A stretch of 64,000 nt of DNA from Pseudomonas sp. B33.4. GTDB lineage: Bacteria > Pseudomonadota > Gammaproteobacteria > Pseudomonadales > Pseudomonadaceae. The notes beneath the pieces are model-generated. The model made no database searches, was not told where the DNA came from, and saw nothing but the letters and a program-made list of their open reading frames with translations. The position numbers and the translations under genes are program-made. This document shows positions 1 through 21,878 of this stretch, piece by piece (the first letter of the stretch is position 1; every line of letters begins with the position of its first letter). Location: positions 4,827,001 through 4,891,000 of the forward strand of contig NZ_CP140706.1 of assembly GCF_034555375.1 (NCBI RefSeq), in the 5' to 3' direction.

Positions 1-534
1 CTCGATGGGCATCTCGAACCAGGCATAAATGAAACTGCCGAGCGGGATATCACCCATGCCGATGTCTTTTCCGGAAAGATAAGGCTGACTGGCCAAGGCA
101 TTGTCGGCCATGCTCAGCAGCCCATTGCATTCCTTGATCGCGGCGTTGATCGCGGCCCAGTCCTGCTTGTCCGCCGGCGTGCGCAACACGCCCCAGAACA
201 CCGTGCGGAAGTGACCGGCAAAACTCGACGTGGTCCAGTCCATCCATTTGTCGGCGATGGCGCGAGCTTGCGGATCGGCCGAATACCAGTTGCTGTCGGG
301 CGCATGCCTGGCCAGCAGATAGCGAACGATGGCGTTGGATTCCCACAGCACAAAACCGTCGTCTTCGATCACCGGCACCCGTCCGTTCGGGTTCATCGCC
401 CGGTATTCAGGTGTGTCGACTACGCCAAACGCGCCACCGGCATCGATCGCCTCGTAAGCCAGACCGAGTTCCTCGGCGGCCCACAATGGTTTCCTGACAT
501 TCGATGAGTTTTTCCGTCCCCAGATCTTCAGCAT
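1..534 (-). CDS. Glutathione S-transferase family protein (3' end outside window)
   Basis: The gene reads leftward from ATG at 534 and runs off the window edge in frame after 178 codons. The translation has the GST layout. An N-terminal thioredoxin-like half (residues 1-80) begins MLKIWGRKNSSNVRK and includes the glutathione-binding turn NGRVPVIEDDG and then LWESNAIVRYL, the conserved E-S pair that contacts the glutamyl part of glutathione. A helical C-terminal half follows. Family members conjugate glutathione to electrophiles in the cytosol. The substrate cannot be told from sequence. It lies 43 bp downstream of the transglutaminase-like gene on the same strand, so the two may be co-transcribed. 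Confidence 0.9.
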   Translation of the reverse strand, partial: MLKIWGRKNSSNVRKPLWAAEELGLAYEAIDAGGAFGVVDTPEYRAMNPNGRVPVIEDDGFVLWESNAIVRYLLARHAPDSNWYSADPQARAIADKWMDWTTSSFAGHFRTVFWGVLRTPADKQDWAAINAAIKECNGLLSMADNALASQPYLSGKDIGMGDIPLGSFIYAWFEMPIE

Positions 535-7821: not shown

Positions 7822-7897
<76 letters not shown>

Positions 7898-7899
7898 AA

Positions 7900-7975
7900 T
7901 GGCGTCCCCTAGGGGACTCGAACCCCTGTTACCGCCGTGAAAGGGCGGTGTCCTAGGCCACTAGACGAAGGGGAC
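7900..7975 (-). tRNA. tRNA-Glu (TTC), copy 3 of 3
   Basis: 76 bases including CCA. The minus strand begins GTCCCCTTCGTCTAG, has the anticodon loop CCTTTCACG (anticodon TTC) and the T arm GGGGTTCGAGTCCCC, and ends GGGGACGCCA. It lies two bases upstream of tRNA-Gly in the transcript. Confidence 0.97.
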
Positions 7976-7998
7976 ACAGGCTACAACTTTCACTCAAT

Positions 7999-8027
7999 AA
8001 AAACGCCGCTCACTGAGCGGCGTTTTT
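7999..8027 (-). terminator. Terminator-like hairpin between tRNA pairs
   Basis: AAAAACGCCGCTCA and TGAGCGGCGTTTTT form a near copy of the hairpin at 7785-7815. It lies between the second tRNA-Gly and the third tRNA-Glu, so part of the transcripts may end here. Confidence 0.75.
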
Positions 8028-8033
8028 AGAATT

Positions 8034-8109
<76 letters not shown>

Positions 8110-8112
8110 AAA

Positions 8113-8188
8113 TGGCGTCCCCTAGGGGACTCGAACCCCTGTTACCGCCGTGAAAGGGCGGTGTCCTAGGCCACTAGACGAAGGGGAC
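8113..8188 (-). tRNA. tRNA-Glu (TTC), copy 2 of 3
   Basis: 76 bases, identical to the copy at 7900, with anticodon TTC and encoded CCA. Confidence 0.97.
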
Positions 8189-8292
8189 ACGCTACCCGGA
8201 ACACATGGTGTGTGTTTCGGTGTCCAGATCCGCCTCCGAAGACTTGGTTCTGGTTTCACTCAGCCCCGCCCGAAAGCAGTGCTGTTTAAAAT

Positions 8293-8368
<76 letters not shown>

Positions 8369-8370
8369 AT

Positions 8371-8446
8371 TGGCGTCCCCTAGGGGACTCGAACCCCTGT
8401 TACCGCCGTGAAAGGGCGGTGTCCTAGGCCACTAGACGAAGGGGAC
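8371..8446 (-). tRNA. tRNA-Glu (TTC), copy 1 of 3 (promoter-proximal)
   Basis: 76 bases, anticodon TTC, encoded CCA. This is the first tRNA transcribed from the promoter at 8508-8536. Confidence 0.97.
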
Positions 8447-9680: not shown

Positions 9681-10196
9681 CTTTCGCGAGCAGGCTCGCT
9701 CCCACAGGGTTTGAGTACATCCGGCAGAGATTGGTCGGCTGTCAGGCCGCTTTCGCGAGCAAGCTCGCTCCCACAGAGTTTGAGTACATCCGGCAGAGAT
9801 GGGTTGGCCGCCAGGCCGAGATCGCGAGCAGGCTCACTCCTACAATGGGATTGAGCACATCTGACAGAGATTGGTCGGCTGTCAGGCCGCTTTCGCGAGC
9901 AAGCTCGCTCCCACAGGGTTTGAGTACATCCGGCAGAGATGGGTTGGCCGCCAGGCCGAGATCGCGAGCTGGCTCACTCCTACAATGGGATTGAGCACAT
10001 CTGACAGAGCTTGGTCGGCTGTCAGGCCGCCTTCGCGAGCAGGCTCGCTCCCACAGGGCTTGAGTACATCCGGCAGAGATGGGTTGGCTGCCAGGCCGCT
10101 ATCGCGAGCAGGCTCACTCCTACATTGGGACTGAGTACATCCGATAGAGGATTGGTCGGCTGTCAGGCCGCCTTCGCGAGCAAGCTAACTCCCACA
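9681..10196. repeat. Tandem REP array, eight units
   Basis: Eight REP palindromes (core GCGAGCAGGCTCGCTCC and variants GCGAGCAAGCTCGCTCC and GCGAGCAGGCTCACTCC) are spaced about 70 bases apart. Two alternating unit types differ in the linker (GGTCGGCTGTCAGGCCG versus GGTTGGCCGCCAGGCCG), which gives a higher-order period of 140 bases. The linkers also repeat (TTGAGTACATCCGGCAGAGA and the variant TTGAGCACATCTGACAGAG). Head-to-tail amplification of a two-REP block explains this arrangement. Open frames across it repeat every 140 bases and are not genes. Confidence 0.92.
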
Positions 10197-10227: not shown

Positions 10228-10555
10228 GCTTCCGCTTCTCACCACTCAACAGGATGAGCGTTAGCTCGGCTGCAGCTCTTGATCTTAAGGCCCGTCGGCA
10301 GGCTGAGTGGAGGGATTGATCCGGGGGTGGGAGCGCAGCGACCGTTCGACGAAGTCGAACACATCGAGAGGAGGTGCAGCGAAGCAAACCGTAGGCGATG
10401 CCCCCCGGATGAATCCCGGAGCGAAGGAACCCCGAGCTTTAGCGAGCGGGCCGAACGTCAGGGCAAAGCGTTTTGGTTACTTTTGGGCGTCTGCAAAAGT
10501 GACCCGCCGTAAGGGCGGAACCCTAATCAGCAACACCCGAAGCAACGGATATCCC
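10228..10555. repeat. Structured 330-bp dispersed repeat, copy A
   Basis: About 328 bases alignable along their whole length with 20462-20795. Conserved blocks include TCACCACTCAA at the left, AGGAGGTGCAGCGAAGCAAA in the middle, GAGCGAAGGAACCCCGAG, and AGGGCGGAACCCTAA and GCAACGGATAT at the right. Four hairpins can be drawn: 10312-10327 with 10402-10417, 10344-10360, 10479-10500 and 10504-10518. Three show compensatory changes against copy B. It ends 50 bases beyond the 3' end of the chemoreceptor gene. Confidence 0.88.
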
Positions 10556-10604: not shown

Positions 10605-12572
10605 TCAAAGCCGAAAATGCCCAACCATCCCCCGCAACTCACTCCCCAACTGCGCCAGCTCAACACTCGAAGCCGCATTCCCGCGCATCGCAACCGACGA
10701 CTGATCCGCACTTGCGCGAATACTCGTCACACTGCGATTGATCTCCTCCGCCACCGAACTCTGCTCCTCGGCCGCCGCCGCAATCTGCTGATTCATCTGC
10801 TGAATCAACGACACCGCCGCCGCAATACTGCCCAGCGCACTCTCGGTCTGCAGCGCATCACTGACCGCCAGCTTCACCAACTCCCCGCTATTCTGAATCT
10901 GCTGCACCGAAGCATGCGCTGCCGAACGCAACGCACTGACCAGCCGTTCAATTTCCTCAGTAGACTGCTGCGTGCGCCGAGCCAGTGCACGCACCTCATC
11001 GGCCACCACCGCAAAGCCCCTGCCCTGCTCACCGGCCCGTGCCGCCTCGATCGCAGCATTCAACGCCAACAGGTTGGTCTGCTCGGCAACGCTTTTGATC
11101 ACCCCCAGTACCGTGCCGATGTTCTGGATTTCCGCACTGAGGCTTTCGATGCTGGAACTGGCCGACGTCGCCGAGTCGGCCAATTGTTCGATCCGCACCA
11201 TGCTCTGGCGCACCACCTGCTGCCCACTCTCGACCTTGTCGTCCGCCGTTTGCGCGGCCAGCGCCGCCTCTTCGGCGTTGCGCGCAACGTCATGCACGGT
11301 GGCGGTCATCTGGTTCATCGCCGTGGCGACCTGCTCGGTTTCTTCCTTCTGGCTGCTGACCTCAAGGTTGGTCTGCTCGGTGACCGCCGACAACGATTGC
11401 GCCGAACTGGCCAGTTGCTCGATCCCCGCCTGCAACCCGCTGACGATCGTGCTCAGCCCCGCCCCCATCTGTTGCATCGCCAGCATCAACTGGCCGATCT
11501 CGTCACGACGGGTCACTTGCACGGTTGCACTCAAGTCGCCGGCGGCAATCTGTTGCGCGACCTGAATCACGCTGCGCAATGGCGCGACGATAAGTCGGGT
11601 GATCAGCCACGCAGCGAGTAATCCCACCAGCAATGCCAGCGCCGATGAGCCGATGATCAGCAGCGAGTTTTTCTTCAGTTCCGCCTGCATCGCGCCGTCT
11701 TCAGCGACATAAGCCTGATTCACCCGCGCGACCACTTGGTCGGCACGCTGGTGCAATTGCTCGTAGACGGTCTTTTCCTGAGCGAGCAATCCGGTGTACT
11801 CAGCCAGTTTTTCGTTGAAACCGGCGATATGCCCGGACACTTCATTGAGGACGGTCAAATAGCCCTCGTCCTTGACCGTGGTTTTCAGCTCTTCGGCTTG
11901 CGTCTGAGCCTGCGCGGCTTGTTCGATATTGCCCTTGCCGGCGCTGTCAGGATCGCCCTTGCGGCTTTGATCCAGACGAATCCGCGCTTCGTTCATCGCC
12001 TGCAGCATCAATCGGGAAACCTGGTTGACCTGACTGGCCTGCTCGATGAACTGCGCCCCGTCCTTGCCCTCGGTGTCCTTCAAGGTATAGGCGCCATCAT
12101 CGGCTAGCCCTGCCTGCAACACATCAAGGTTGTTGGCCACACTGGACACCGACCAACTGGCCATTTCCAGCGCGAGGTCCTTGGCCTGAGTCAACGACAC
12201 AAACTCGTCGAACGCCTTGCGATAAGCGCCAAGCGACAGCTGCACATCATTCATGACCGGCACATTGGCCACCGACTGCGCCTTGAGCTGATCAGCCAGA
12301 GCAACCAGTTCGTCGACGCCCTTACGCAGGGCATCGGCCGTCTTCGGATTGCCCCGCAAGGCATATTCCTGCTCGAGCAGGCGCACTTTGAGCAAGCCAC
12401 TGTTGAGCGAGGACATCTGTTTCAGCCCGTCGAAGCGCTGACTGATGGTTTGCAGGGACCAGACGCCAATGGCCGCCACCAGCGCGGTCAAAAGCAAAAC
12501 CAGCACAAACCCGATACCCAGTTTTTTTGCCATACCGAGGTTGGCAAAACGTCCTTGCATGGCCGAAATCAT
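10605..12572 (-). CDS. Methyl-accepting chemotaxis protein
   Basis: 655 residues. ATG 12572 is chosen for AGGGGA 9 bases upstream. The layout is a membrane helix at about 16-38, a periplasmic ligand domain of about 260 residues (39-300), a second membrane helix at 302-324 ([20 protein letters not shown]), a HAMP linker at 325-378 and a signalling domain at 400-655 with the hairpin tip [20 protein letters not shown]. The all-helical 260-residue ligand domain is about twice the normal size, as in the helical bimodular (HBM) receptors such as McpS that sense organic acids. The ligand itself is not readable. Acts with CheA/CheW at the cell pole. Confidence 0.93.
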
Positions 12573-12681
12573 TGCGCGTAGTCCCCTGCCATTGTCAGTA
12601 GAGCGAAGAGTCGCAACGGCCATCCACCCGCACAAGTCTCTGGCGTCGGAATAATGGCAAAAAGCTACGCCCGCGTCGTTT

Positions 12682-14082
12682 TCAGAACACTTGAGGTCGA
12701 TCCGCACCGGTGTTACGGAAAAACTGCCGGGCGCGCGGATCGCAGGCGTACGCGACATTGATACGCAACCAGTCGCCCGCCTCGCCACTTGGACTGAACG
12801 CATCCGGCGCTGACAGCAACACGCCGCAGCGTTGCGCCTGCCGAAGTATTCGAGAGTGATCGGTCACGCGCGAACGTGCCCAGATGAACAGCCCGCCTGC
12901 AGGTTTGCCGAAAACCTCCCAATCGGCATCCTCCAGCGCCTGCAATGCGGCAGCCCGGTCGGCATTCAGACGTTGACGCTGGCGCTGAACCAGTTTTCGG
13001 TAAGCGCCACAGCCCATCAGGCTGGCCAGCACGGCCTCGGAAAACCTCGACGCGCCGAGGCCGCTGATCATCTTGACCTGCGCCAGCCGCCTGACAGTTT
13101 CGCTGTCGGCGAAGACGAACCCGACCCGCAACGAACTGCTCAGGGTCTTGGAAAAACTGCCCACATAGATGACTCGCCCCTCATCATCCAGCGCCGCCAG
13201 TCGTGTACCGTTACCGGTGTGCAAGTCCGCGTAGACATCGTCTTCGATCAGACGCACATCGTAGGCTTTGCTCAGTTGCAGGATGCGTTGCGCCACACTT
13301 GGCGACAGGCAACTGCCGGTGGGGTTGTGATGATGACTGTTGATGAACACCGCACTTGGCCGAAACTGTCGCAACAAACACTCCAGTGCTTCGATGTCCG
13401 GCCCGGTCGGGGTGCGGCGCACCTCAAGCATGCGCACGCCATGCAGACGCAGCAGGTCGAACAGCGGCGCATACCCGGGGGTTTCGACCACCACGCAGTC
13501 ACCGGCCTTGAACAAAGTGCGCACGATCAGATCCAGCGCATGGCTGGCACCGCAGGTACTCAACAACTGCGAACTGCGGGCCTCGATACTGAGCAGCCTG
13601 AGGCGTTTGACGATCTGCTCGCGCAGTGCTGGAAGCCCCAAGGGCGTGCTGTAGTTGAACAGGCTGGCCATGTCGGTGCGAGCCACTTCGCGCAGCGCAT
13701 AGCTGAGGTCGTCAGGCTCGCGCCAGCTTTGCGGAAGACCACCGCCCCCCAGTTTCAAGCCATCTGGGGCTTCGCAGACTGCATCGCACCAGGCATAACG
13801 GCCCTCAAAGGGCGCCAGTTCATCTTCTGCCCCCAGCATCGCTGGCGCGGCAGCGACAATGAACCCGGTGCCTTGGCATGAGCTCAAAACACCCTGCGAT
13901 ACCAGCCGTTCACACGCCTCGACCACACACGACTGGCTGAGCAGATTGCCTCGGGCAATTTGCCGAACCGAAGGCAAACGAGTAGCCGGCGGCACACCAC
14001 TTTGCAGGATCCACTCCGTCAGTCCGTCAACAATCTGCTGCACGACCGGCACCATTGCCTGTCGATCAATTCTCAATTCCAT
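12682..14082 (-). CDS. MocR-type GntR regulator with aminotransferase domain
   Basis: 466 residues from ATG 14082; AGGAG lies 11 bases upstream, and a TTG two codons earlier is possible. Residues 8-75 are a GntR winged helix ([20 protein letters not shown]). The remainder is a fold-type I aminotransferase domain with NSHHHNPTG and the PLP lysine in [14 protein letters not shown]. MocR proteins use PLP to sense amines or amino acids and control a nearby gene. Candidate targets here are the adjacent SDR gene or the chemoreceptor gene, both on the same strand. The N-terminal half has the expected length and nothing is missing. Confidence 0.92.
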
Positions 14083-20270: not shown

Positions 20271-20436
20271 CGCCCCTCACCCTAACCCTCTCCCAGAGGG
20301 AGAGGGGACTGACCGAGGTGTTTGGGAGAGCTACGCCGACGTGAAATACCGAGTCGAACGCAAATTTTGAAAAGCTCACCAATCGGCCCCCTCTCCCTCG
20401 GGAGAGGGCTGGGCGGGCGGCGTTCCGATGAGGGGC
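20271..20436. repeat. 165-bp CTCTCCC-type inverted-repeat element, copy 1
   Basis: The ends are inverted: CCCCTCACCCTAACCCTCTCCC on one side (first 20 bases sufficient to identify it) and GGGAGAGGGCTGGG on the other, each with an internal CTCTCCC/GGGAGAG palindrome. The interior is in the opposite orientation to copies at 24655, 51886 and 61489 (TTCGACTCGGTATTTCACGTC appears on the minus strand). Confidence 0.85.
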
Positions 20437-20461
20437 AGCAACAACGCAAATCAAAAGCCGA

Positions 20462-20795
20462 ACGCGCCCCGCTCCTCACCACTCAATAGGCCGAGTGTCA
20501 GCTCGCCTGCTCTTGATCTTGAACCACGGGCGACGTCGGAAGGCTTCGTTCCGGGATTGATCCGGGCGTGGGAGCGCAGCGACCGTTTGGCGCAGCCAAA
20601 CACAGCGAGAGGAGGTGCAGCGAAGCAAACCGTAGGCGCTGCGCCCGGATCGATCCCGGAGCGAAGGAACCCCGAGCCCCAGCGAGCGGGCCGCACGCAG
20701 GAGCAAGCCTTTTGGGTTACCTTTTCGGCGTTTGGAAAAGGTGACCCGCCGTAAGGGCGGAACCCTAAGCAGCCGTTACCGCAGCAACGGATATT
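20462..20795. repeat. Structured 330-bp dispersed repeat, copy B
   Basis: This matches 10228-10555. Its hairpins are 20551-20568 with 20642-20659, 20585-20601, 20719-20742 and the invariant CCGCC-GTAAG-GGCGG near 20746-20760. It lies just past the 3' end of the permease gene, in the same relation to its neighbour as copy A has to the chemoreceptor gene. It is followed by a CCCAAA simple repeat (20798-20824). Confidence 0.88.
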
Positions 20796-20825: not shown

Positions 20826-21878
20826 CTAGCGCCGCTCCTCAACCCGCCCCTGACTCTTGCTCCAATCCGTCAACAAACTATAAGCCACCGCCAACAGCGT
20901 AGGCCCGATAAACAACCCGATAAACCCAAACGCAATCAACCCGCCAAACACCCCAAGCAACACAATCACCAACGGCAAATTCCCGCCGCGGCTGATCAGA
21001 TAAGGCTTGAGCACGTTATCCACGCCACTGATGATGAACGTCCCCCAGATCCCGAGAAACACCGCCATCCCATACTCACCCTTCCACGCCAGCCAGGCCG
21101 TGGCCGGCACCCACACCAACGGCGGCCCCATCGGAATCAGACTCAGCAAAAACGTCACGATCCCGAGCACCAACGCCCCCGGCACCCCGGCGATCAAAAA
21201 CCCGATCAACGCCAGAACCGCCTGCGCCGCCGCCGTGCCGATCACGCCGTTAACCACCCGCTGCACCGTACCGGCCACCAACTCGATGTAATACCCGGCG
21301 CGATCACCAATCAAGCGCTCCAGCAGACTATGCACAAACGCCGCCAGTCGCGGCCCGTCGCGATAGAAAAAGAACACAAAAACGATGCTCAACGTCAGCT
21401 CGAGAATCCCGCCGCCAATCTGCGCACTGCGCGCCAGCAACCAGTTACCGACCTGCCCCAGATAAGGCTTGATCGACACCATCAGTGCGGCGCCCTGCTG
21501 ATCGATGCTGTTCCACAGTCCGACCAGCCGTTCCCCTACGAACGGCAAGGTCCCCAGCCAAACCGGCGCCTCCGGCAGACCGTCGACCTGCACATCCTTG
21601 ATAAACGCCGTGGCATCACGCACATGATCGGCCAGGTTGAACCCCAGCCACACCAGCGGCGCCGCCACCAGCAGCATCCAGCCCAACGTCAGAATCGCCG
21701 CAGCCAAGGACTCACGGCCATTGAGCCAACGGGTCAACAGGCGCATCAGCGGCCAACTGGCAAACGCCAGCACCGCGCCCCAGAACAGCGCCGACCAGAA
21801 CGGCGCCATCACCCACAGGCTGGCACCAAACAACACCAGCAGCAGGATCTGCACCAGCAGGCGATCGTTATTGAGCAT
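20826..21878 (-). CDS. AI-2E transporter family permease
   Basis: 350 residues with about eight hydrophobic helices. The family (YdiK/PerM/TqsA) is marked by the C-terminal stretch GVDNVLKPYLISRGGNLPLV and by GLFIGPTLLAVAYSLL. Inner-membrane location. The transported solute is not predictable; the family name comes from one E. coli member linked to autoinducer-2. ATG 21878 is followed directly by a normal N-terminus. The C-terminus (SKSQGRVEERR) is soluble. Confidence 0.92.
   Translation of the reverse strand: MLNNDRLLVQILLLVLFGASLWVMAPFWSALFWGAVLAFASWPLMRLLTRWLNGRESLAAAILTLGWMLLVAAPLVWLGFNLADHVRDATAFIKDVQVDGLPEAPVWLGTLPFVGERLVGLWNSIDQQGAALMVSIKPYLGQVGNWLLARSAQIGGGILELTLSIVFVFFFYRDGPRLAAFVHSLLERLIGDRAGYYIELVAGTVQRVVNGVIGTAAAQAVLALIGFLIAGVPGALVLGIVTFLLSLIPMGPPLVWVPATAWLAWKGEYGMAVFLGIWGTFIISGVDNVLKPYLISRGGNLPLVIVLLGVFGGLIAFGFIGLFIGPTLLAVAYSLLTDWSKSQGRVEERR

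Follow-up and report, generated by a model that had tools for sequence, protein, structure and literature searches.

Two repeats, A and B, in a 64,000-nucleotide stretch of the Pseudomonas sp. B33.4 chromosome (the window) represent one arm type, type 1, of a dispersed, non-coding, chromosome-borne repeat family. The arms fold on their own + strand, with compensatory change conserving the fold, and in solo arms as well as in the better-matching member of most pairs this + strand is identical to the lagging strand. The orientation rule, together with a link to the Rfam family TwoAYGGAY, is new here, and since a non-coding repeat obeys replication direction with few exceptions and more strictly than genes do, the cause is to be sought in replication itself. 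The explanation that we favour, tentatively and as possible rather than probable, is that of a dispersed repeat deposited at replication forks in the form of folded single strands, which fixed its orientation, and now mostly inherited and homogenised.

Copies, arm types and fold

The genome (G000) is a single contig of 6.60 Mb, of which the window is G000:C1:4827001-4891000. The preliminary description had placed two copies of a structured repeat at 10228-10555 and 20462-20795. The profile-defined bodies, both on the + strand, fall within these spans, the stems of both copies read in the sequence as described, and the copies end, as had been said, next to the 3′ ends of leftward ORFs, with stops at 10605 (A) and 20826 (B). 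The features are as follows.

10240..10552, + strand: copy A, type 1 arm, repeat body (profile match 1-318 in locus L272; 24-copy alignment)
10242..10310, + strand: 5′ domain of copy A, closed by CCACTCA (10242-10248) and TGAGTGG (10304-10310) (consensus fold of 67 copies, columns 3-9 with 72-78)
10321..10408, + strand: middle domain of copy A, closing stem CCGGGGG / CCCCCGG enclosing hairpin b, stem 2 and hairpin c (sequence; pair table)
10344..10360, + strand: stem 2 of copy A, GTTCGAC-GAA-GTCGAAC (its GNA loop is conserved, see below)
10475..10504, + strand: stem 3 of copy A, GGTTACTTTTG / CAAAAGTGACC (sequence; pair counts, helix 2)
10504..10518, + strand: stem 4 of copy A, CCGCC-GTAAG-GGCGG (pair counts, helix 3)
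10605..12803, − strand: leading-strand ORF with its 3′ end toward copy A, chemotaxis-receptor-like by reading of the sequence alone (ORF list)
20273..20437, no strand assigned: separate repeat 5′ of copy B, with hairpins CCCTCTCCC...GGGAGAGGG (sequence, alignment, by eye)
20477..20794, + strand: copy B, type 1 arm (profile match 1-318 in locus L251)
20826..21878, − strand: leading-strand ORF of 350 aa with its 3′ end toward copy B, membrane-protein-like on the same kind of reading (ORF list)

The body of copy A is followed by a partly conserved tail, NNACCC. Directly 5′ of this copy, a REP-like array with units of ~140 bp occupies 9731-10195 of the window, and further upstream (7822-8446, minus strand) a tRNA-Gly(GCC)/tRNA-Glu(TTC) pair is present in three tandem copies. 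By eye, sequence similar to the CCCTCTCCC/GGGAGAGGG hairpin repeat also occurs on the 5′ side of several type 1 arms and of all but one of the six type 2 arms described next, frequently upstream of the arms or between them.

Both copies are present as first described, but two is an undercount: among the matches listed in a search of the own genome, the chromosome has 24 full copies, which are 80-100% identical to copy B, and six shorter ones, for which the match begins only at query position 98 or 101. When all are set in the same direction and aligned, the 24 type 1 arms have a common 5′ domain that is absent from the six type 2 arms, which carry a 5′ sequence of their own and changes common to them. 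Five of the six type 2 arms are set 5′-to-5′ with a type 1 arm at a spacing of 238-360 bases; the sixth stands alone. Outside the own genome, arms often occur as two diverged copies, 5′-to-5′ with their 3′ ends outward, often between convergent gene ends. Pairs set 5′-to-5′ are present in G000 itself and in G036, G019, G017, G154 and G180.

Two copies alone are weak evidence for covariation, which was therefore tested in many copies. The full-element set comprised 67 non-redundant copies (<92% identity) out of 176 unique ones, and its consensus fold has three parts: the 5′ domain, a middle domain in which a long closing stem surrounds small hairpins, and a 3′ module made of stems 3 and 4. Double changes occur at 33 of the 93 predicted pairs, in 309 cells, compared with 16-58 when the partners are slid by 1-3 columns and at most 124 in 200 shuffles that ignore relatedness. 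Likewise, 94.4% of cells are paired, against 31.9-42.4% in the slid controls and a mean of 89.1% (highest 89.6%) in the shuffles, relatedness again being ignored. For the 3′ module, a wider set of 54 sequences gives 98.2% paired cells (shuffled, 89.2%) and 102 double-change cells, as compared with 29.8 on shuffling that ignores relatedness (0 of 500 shuffles reach the observed value) and 2-7 on sliding; further pair types in this module, at 20, are not above the shuffles (19.1; 197 of 500 reach it). Because these controls ignore relatedness, we rely on the slid controls and on pairs with several types, such as the outer pair of stem 4 (C-G 29, U-A 21, A-U 2, G-C 1). The compensatory changes first proposed from A and B are borne out in both sets, above slid and shuffled controls alike.

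The selection on a folded single strand that had been proposed is also supported, and it acts on the strand on which the stems had been written. At 17 core pairs, picked for covariation between Watson-Crick types, G-T outnumbers A-C on the + strand by 118 to 11 in 112 type 1 sequences and by 33 to 6 in 47 type 2 sequences (the latter including drafts without known orientation), and this excess in both arm types identifies + as the folding strand. Strand-biased mutation was considered as a source of the excess and is unlikely, as type 2 arms, which mostly point the opposite way where their direction is known, show the same excess. In unpaired columns, C-to-T changes amount to 4.8% and G-to-A changes to 2.1% in type 1 (5.6% and 4.3% in type 2), a difference that falls short of the excess at paired positions. 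Because G-U pairs were permitted on the + strand when the fold was predicted, wider G-T counts lean toward +; a reverse-strand fold, which has the opposite lean, still has more A-C (123) than G-U (75) on its own strand. The folding energies of copy B (z of −4.5 as DNA and −4.8 as RNA for +; −4.1 and −3.7 for the reverse) agree weakly with + as the folding strand.

The hairpin loops are of few kinds. Stem 2 has a GNA loop in 162 of the 164 copies located by pattern among 176 searched (GCA 84, GAA 76, GTA 1, GGA 1), hairpin b in 169 of 176 (GCA 151, GTA 15, GAA 2, GGA 1; the pattern missed 7) and hairpin c in 155 of 176 (the pattern missed 21), and the 5′ hairpin has a GNNA loop in 172 of 176 (GTTA 111, GTCA 46, GCAA 13, GCCA 1, GCTA 1). 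The loop of stem 3 has 8 bases, and that of stem 4 is mostly GTAAG. GNA triloops are not known as a usual choice of RNA. Loops of the GNA and GNNA kinds, when combined with G-C pairs, form a described class of very stable DNA mini-hairpins (PMC4686876), which points to single-stranded DNA.

Orientation relative to replication

In the own genome, dnaA lies at 6594 kb and the terminus was taken at the half-circle. The + strand of type 1 runs against the fork in 24/24 copies, which makes it the lagging strand there, and local GC skew in 3-kb stretches is concordant at 23 of the 24, the exception being L010. The own type 2 arms point in the direction opposite to type 1 in five of six cases. In three relatives, where type labels were assigned by match start and pairing, type 1 lies against the fork in 27/27 (G036), 27/27 (G019) and 25/25 (G034) of the candidates scored; first-look scoring covered 40 of 42 candidates in G000, 40 of 56 in G036, 40 of 47 in G019, 40 of 42 in G034 and 40 of 45 in G049, from lists that may be incomplete. 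Type labels are less clean in G005, G046 and G049, where seven obeying arms are slightly nearer type 2 according to two competing profiles.

A count that ignores arm type and distinguishes only copies alone from copies in a 5′-to-5′ pair, with rows under ~60 bits dropped in all nine genomes, gives 136 of 145 solos that obey the rule. The 96 solos of five genomes do so without exception (G000 20/20, including the lone type 2 arm; G036 20/20; G019 21/21; G034 22/22; G005 13/13), followed by G049 (13/14), G046 (13/15), G010 (7/8) and G017 (7/12), the last value being distorted because the dropped rows included mates, so that some apparent solos are members of pairs. Among pairs, the better-matching arm obeys in 36 of 42. 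When matches to the Rfam family discussed below are taken as arms, the more distant Pseudomonas G017 has 11 pairs, 10 of them with distinguishable arms, and the same arm lies against the fork in 9 of the 10; its remaining solos obey in 6 of 7 cases. In G010, 11 of 15 such matches obey, and three of the four exceptions sit in pairs. G180, a distant relative outside Pseudomonas, has no orientation bias, with 7 of 12 apparent solos concordant with local skew. G029 was left out of the totals: only 3 of its 18 copies obey by the dnaA-based count and its GC skew is patchy, while local 20-kb skew, in some cases near zero, fits the rule at 14 of 16 fetched copies. Its assembly is a single contig, the order of which is probably wrong or scrambled. 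Because species share sites, counts from different genomes are not independent, and the 24 own-genome sites form the cleanest sample.

The orientation could in principle be a by-product of gene layout, with arms following convergent genes and most genes being leading. Indeed, codon-based calls place a convergent gene on the 3′ side of 19 of the 24 own copies, and calls of this type, made over 20 stretches of 20 kb, give 209 of 334 genes (62.6%) as leading. This proportion predicts ~15 of 24 copies, however, and the chance of 24/24 is 1.3e-5. Furthermore, the five copies without a convergent 3′-side gene (L003, L006, L007, L011 and L016) obey nonetheless, so that the rule follows replication and not the neighbouring gene, and REP-like motifs, likewise intergenic, are unbiased in the same stretches and the window (41 versus 45). 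We regard gene layout as a very improbable source of the rule. The open literature, a scope narrower than print as a whole, yielded neither a description of this repeat nor one of a replication-direction rule for intergenic repeats; the nearest printed hint that we found is a remark that tandem REP arrays of the SBW25 chromosome lie in opposite orientation on its two sides (Bertels and Rainey 2011, PMC3116915).

Distribution and turnover of sites

At an E value of 0.001, the repeat is matched in 48 of 59 genomes of the genus, the own included, and has no match in the other 11. An identical 29-base core was listed at at least 80 loci (at least 120 stretches), all named Pseudomonas. The element is on one of 72,556 plasmid records, as a partial match, and on none of 50,697 phage records; pair-type queries are on one and two plasmid records and the local REP array on two. 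Chromosome restriction as a special feature was rejected, the local REP array being equally rare on plasmids.

Thirteen between-species comparisons at orthologous sites (33 copies compared) have flanks that are 88-95% identical and elements that are 81-95% alike. The orthologous elements are above the mean of the own paralogues in 8 comparisons, equal to it in 2 and below it in 3, and they are below the best paralogue in 10 of 13. Several sites are common to species though the sequences at them are not; on these comparisons, the sites seem to stay while the sequences seem to be exchanged. Site B holds the repeat, by profile, in 2 of the 19 loci that hold the gene (G000 and G016), and in G011 the same site has what is by eye a decayed remnant, without a profile match; site A holds it in 3 of 12 loci (G000, G016 and G005). 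In an empty-site comparison at two sites, the gaps differ by other repeats as well, giving no clean empty site with precise ends.

Single copies are broken by insertions. In G036, 6 of 27 type 1 copies are split at query 243-246 by 1325 bases each; two insertions were read, and the one searched encodes an IS481-like transposase (215 bits, with the cut-off at 224). In G019, insertions of 1646-1683 bases interrupt 5 of 27 type 1 copies near the stem 3 loop, and of two insertions read, the one searched encodes an IS3-family transposase. In both genomes the insertions enter the repeat at nearly fixed positions (e.g., L323, L322). An extra CTGGGCCGGCA.TCCGG-like stretch lies within the stem 3 loop at L121, L077, L130, L105, L053 and L230; CTGGGCCGGCA was not found in two G019 insertion loci.

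These distributions bear on the reading that the arms are polar chromosome sites, at which folded DNA, or else a bound protein, would act on forks, restart, segregation or fork-transcription encounters and would work in one orientation only. Between dnaA and the closest type 1 copy lie 731-823 kb in G000, G036, G019 and G034, and in G000 REP motifs are nearer to dnaA than any type 1 copy. Such a gap would suit polar sites, as would the sites common to species despite diverged sequence and the obedience of the five of 24 own sites that have no convergent 3′-side gene. However, copies lie nearer the origin in G005, G046, G049 and G010, so that the gap is not general, and the genus genomes without a match, the broken and decayed copies and G180, where the rule is absent, all count against polar sites, which we consider unlikely. 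Still less likely, in our estimate, is the specific form in which the arms are chromosome-wide polar folding DNA sites read by the replication machinery, each strand of a pair having its own folded arm, the leading-side arm being kept everywhere and selection maintaining orientation; if it were true, the TwoAYGGAY 'RNAs' would be parts of the same sites.

TwoAYGGAY, mobilising genes and known repeat systems

The statement in the preliminary description that no named RNA family fits holds for the own copies and fails for sister arms with the same 3′ module. Against Rfam, only tRNAs of the window reach the gathering score, and a permissive scan of copy A (E up to 5) gave one match at chance level. 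A covariance model of the 3′ module, under strict filters, matches 10 of 114 genomes across the class, the own included, more weakly outside the genus. G180 and G154 have many of these matches in 5′-to-5′ pairs, with starts ~370-470 bases apart, and seven loci read by eye have arms near gene ends and inverted ends. In three genomes (G017, G010 and G154) sister arms match Rfam TwoAYGGAY (RF01731), mostly above its gathering score, and the own copies have the 3′ module and the 5′-to-5′ arm pairs in common with the repeats whose arms carry TwoAYGGAY (R1 and blastn matches). Whole-genome scans gave 29 matches in G017, 15 in G010 and 30 in G154 (9 of them under the cut-off), and none in G000, G036 or G180. 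In G017, 26 of the 29 lie directly 5′ of a same-strand 3′ module, as found in the own copies. At L376 of G010 (181-379, minus strand), a C4 antisense RNA and its a1/b1 targets (RF01695, RF03163) lie beside a TwoAYGGAY pair.

We know of no function for TwoAYGGAY. Its ANGGAY loops presumably resemble Csr/Rsm protein sites, in line with the clan label given below, and Csr/Rsm-like loops in sister arms point to RNA rather than DNA. The arms may accordingly be considered as structured RNAs, whose + transcript would fold and act as RNA, for example in Csr/Rsm-type binding through ANGGAY loops, with the own version derived. In favour of such an RNA, both arm types fold on the + strand, and Rfam places RF01731, under the type label Cis-reg, in clan CL00106 together with CsrB. 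Furthermore, a published table marks TwoAYGGAY as probably RNA and probably not cis-regulatory, found in gut samples, gamma-proteobacteria and Clostridiales (Weinberg et al. 2010, PMC2864571). In the own family, by contrast, single folding of 176 copies gave 127 in which no hairpin loop of the + strand contains GGA, 43 with one such loop and 6 with two, so that the pair of ANGGAY-loop hairpins typical of RF01731 is mostly lacking. The arms have no constant upstream gene, the nearest one lying in either direction, the GNA triloops are not those usually expected of an RNA, and an RNA function does not predict the replication rule. A structured RNA is in our view unlikely. In form, TwoAYGGAY and the own repeat are alike in that a closing stem holds hairpins in both and that sister arms share the 3′ module; they differ in that the own genome has no match and that GGA hairpin loops are mostly absent from the own family. 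The results also provide a lead on TwoAYGGAY: many of its matches in G017 and G154 belong to inverted pairs as arms, and the pairs of G017 follow an orientation rule.

With modest confidence, we return to deposition at replication forks as the explanation that we prefer. A folded single strand would have been copied or inserted at forks, where the strands may differ in exposure, fixing the orientation; most copies would now be passed on at their existing sites, with gene conversion keeping them alike. Such an origin explains the orientation and the folding strand as well as the pairs, the intergenic places and the broken copies. Deposition at forks is supported by the unanimity of the 24 own copies, by the solos of the nine genomes and the pairs of G017, and by the gene and REP controls. 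The folding strand, the GNA/GNNA loops, the broken or decayed copies, the orthologues that are about as alike as average paralogues and the precedent of IS200/IS605 are further support. Weighing against it are the sites common to species with little sign of present movement, the lack of the rule in G180 and of a clean empty site at the two sites compared, the Csr-type loops of sister arms, which point to RNA, and two comparisons with transposons given below, namely the Y1 loci and the template strand of IS608. We hold the structured-RNA and polar-site readings to be each a little over half as likely as deposition at forks.

A link to RAYT/TIRYT was the strongest lead to a mobilising gene and was not borne out. 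Across 12 genomes, the Y1 transposase family (PF01797) gave 33 matches, and at none of the 30 loci fetched from these does an arm lie within 1.5 kb of the gene (0/30). The single-stranded DNA of a transposition process, one of the two forms first proposed for the folded strand, may still be involved. An autonomous element whose arms enclose a gene was rejected, as three of four long centres hold different IS genes (one of IS110 type, one of IS3 type by family search and one of IS3 type by reading) and the fourth another ORF.

With REP, REPIN and BIME sequences and their RAYTs, the repeat shares its intergenic location, many copies, inverted pairs and hairpins. According to two accounts, REPs are found chiefly between genes that are unidirectional or convergent (PMC3733652, PMC6006769). 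The own element, at ~320 nt, is several times longer than a REP, the hairpin of which has 21-65 nt and a GTAG (or GTGG) tag at its foot, its arms have no adjoining Y1 transposase at the 30 loci, and it is oriented by replication, whereas the local REP motif is unbiased. The P. fluorescens repeats R200 (320 bp) and R26 (352 bp) are similar in length, intergenic place and order of copy number, a likeness by description only (PMC2718517). That 2009 study notes a tail-to-tail bias of P. fluorescens repeats, suggested there to reflect the least harmful place, and its main text does not contain the words "replichore" or "leading strand" (PMC2718517). Finally, the transposition of the hairpin-ended IS200/IS605 elements is coupled to the fork, and IS608 uses the lagging-strand template (PMC6006769). 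The solos of the own repeat differ from IS608: their folding strand is the template of the leading strand and not, as there, that of the lagging strand. The short arms of pairs have theirs on the lagging-strand template. With IS200/IS605 and its non-autonomous derivatives, the repeat has in common its folded ends and a replication-coupled orientation.
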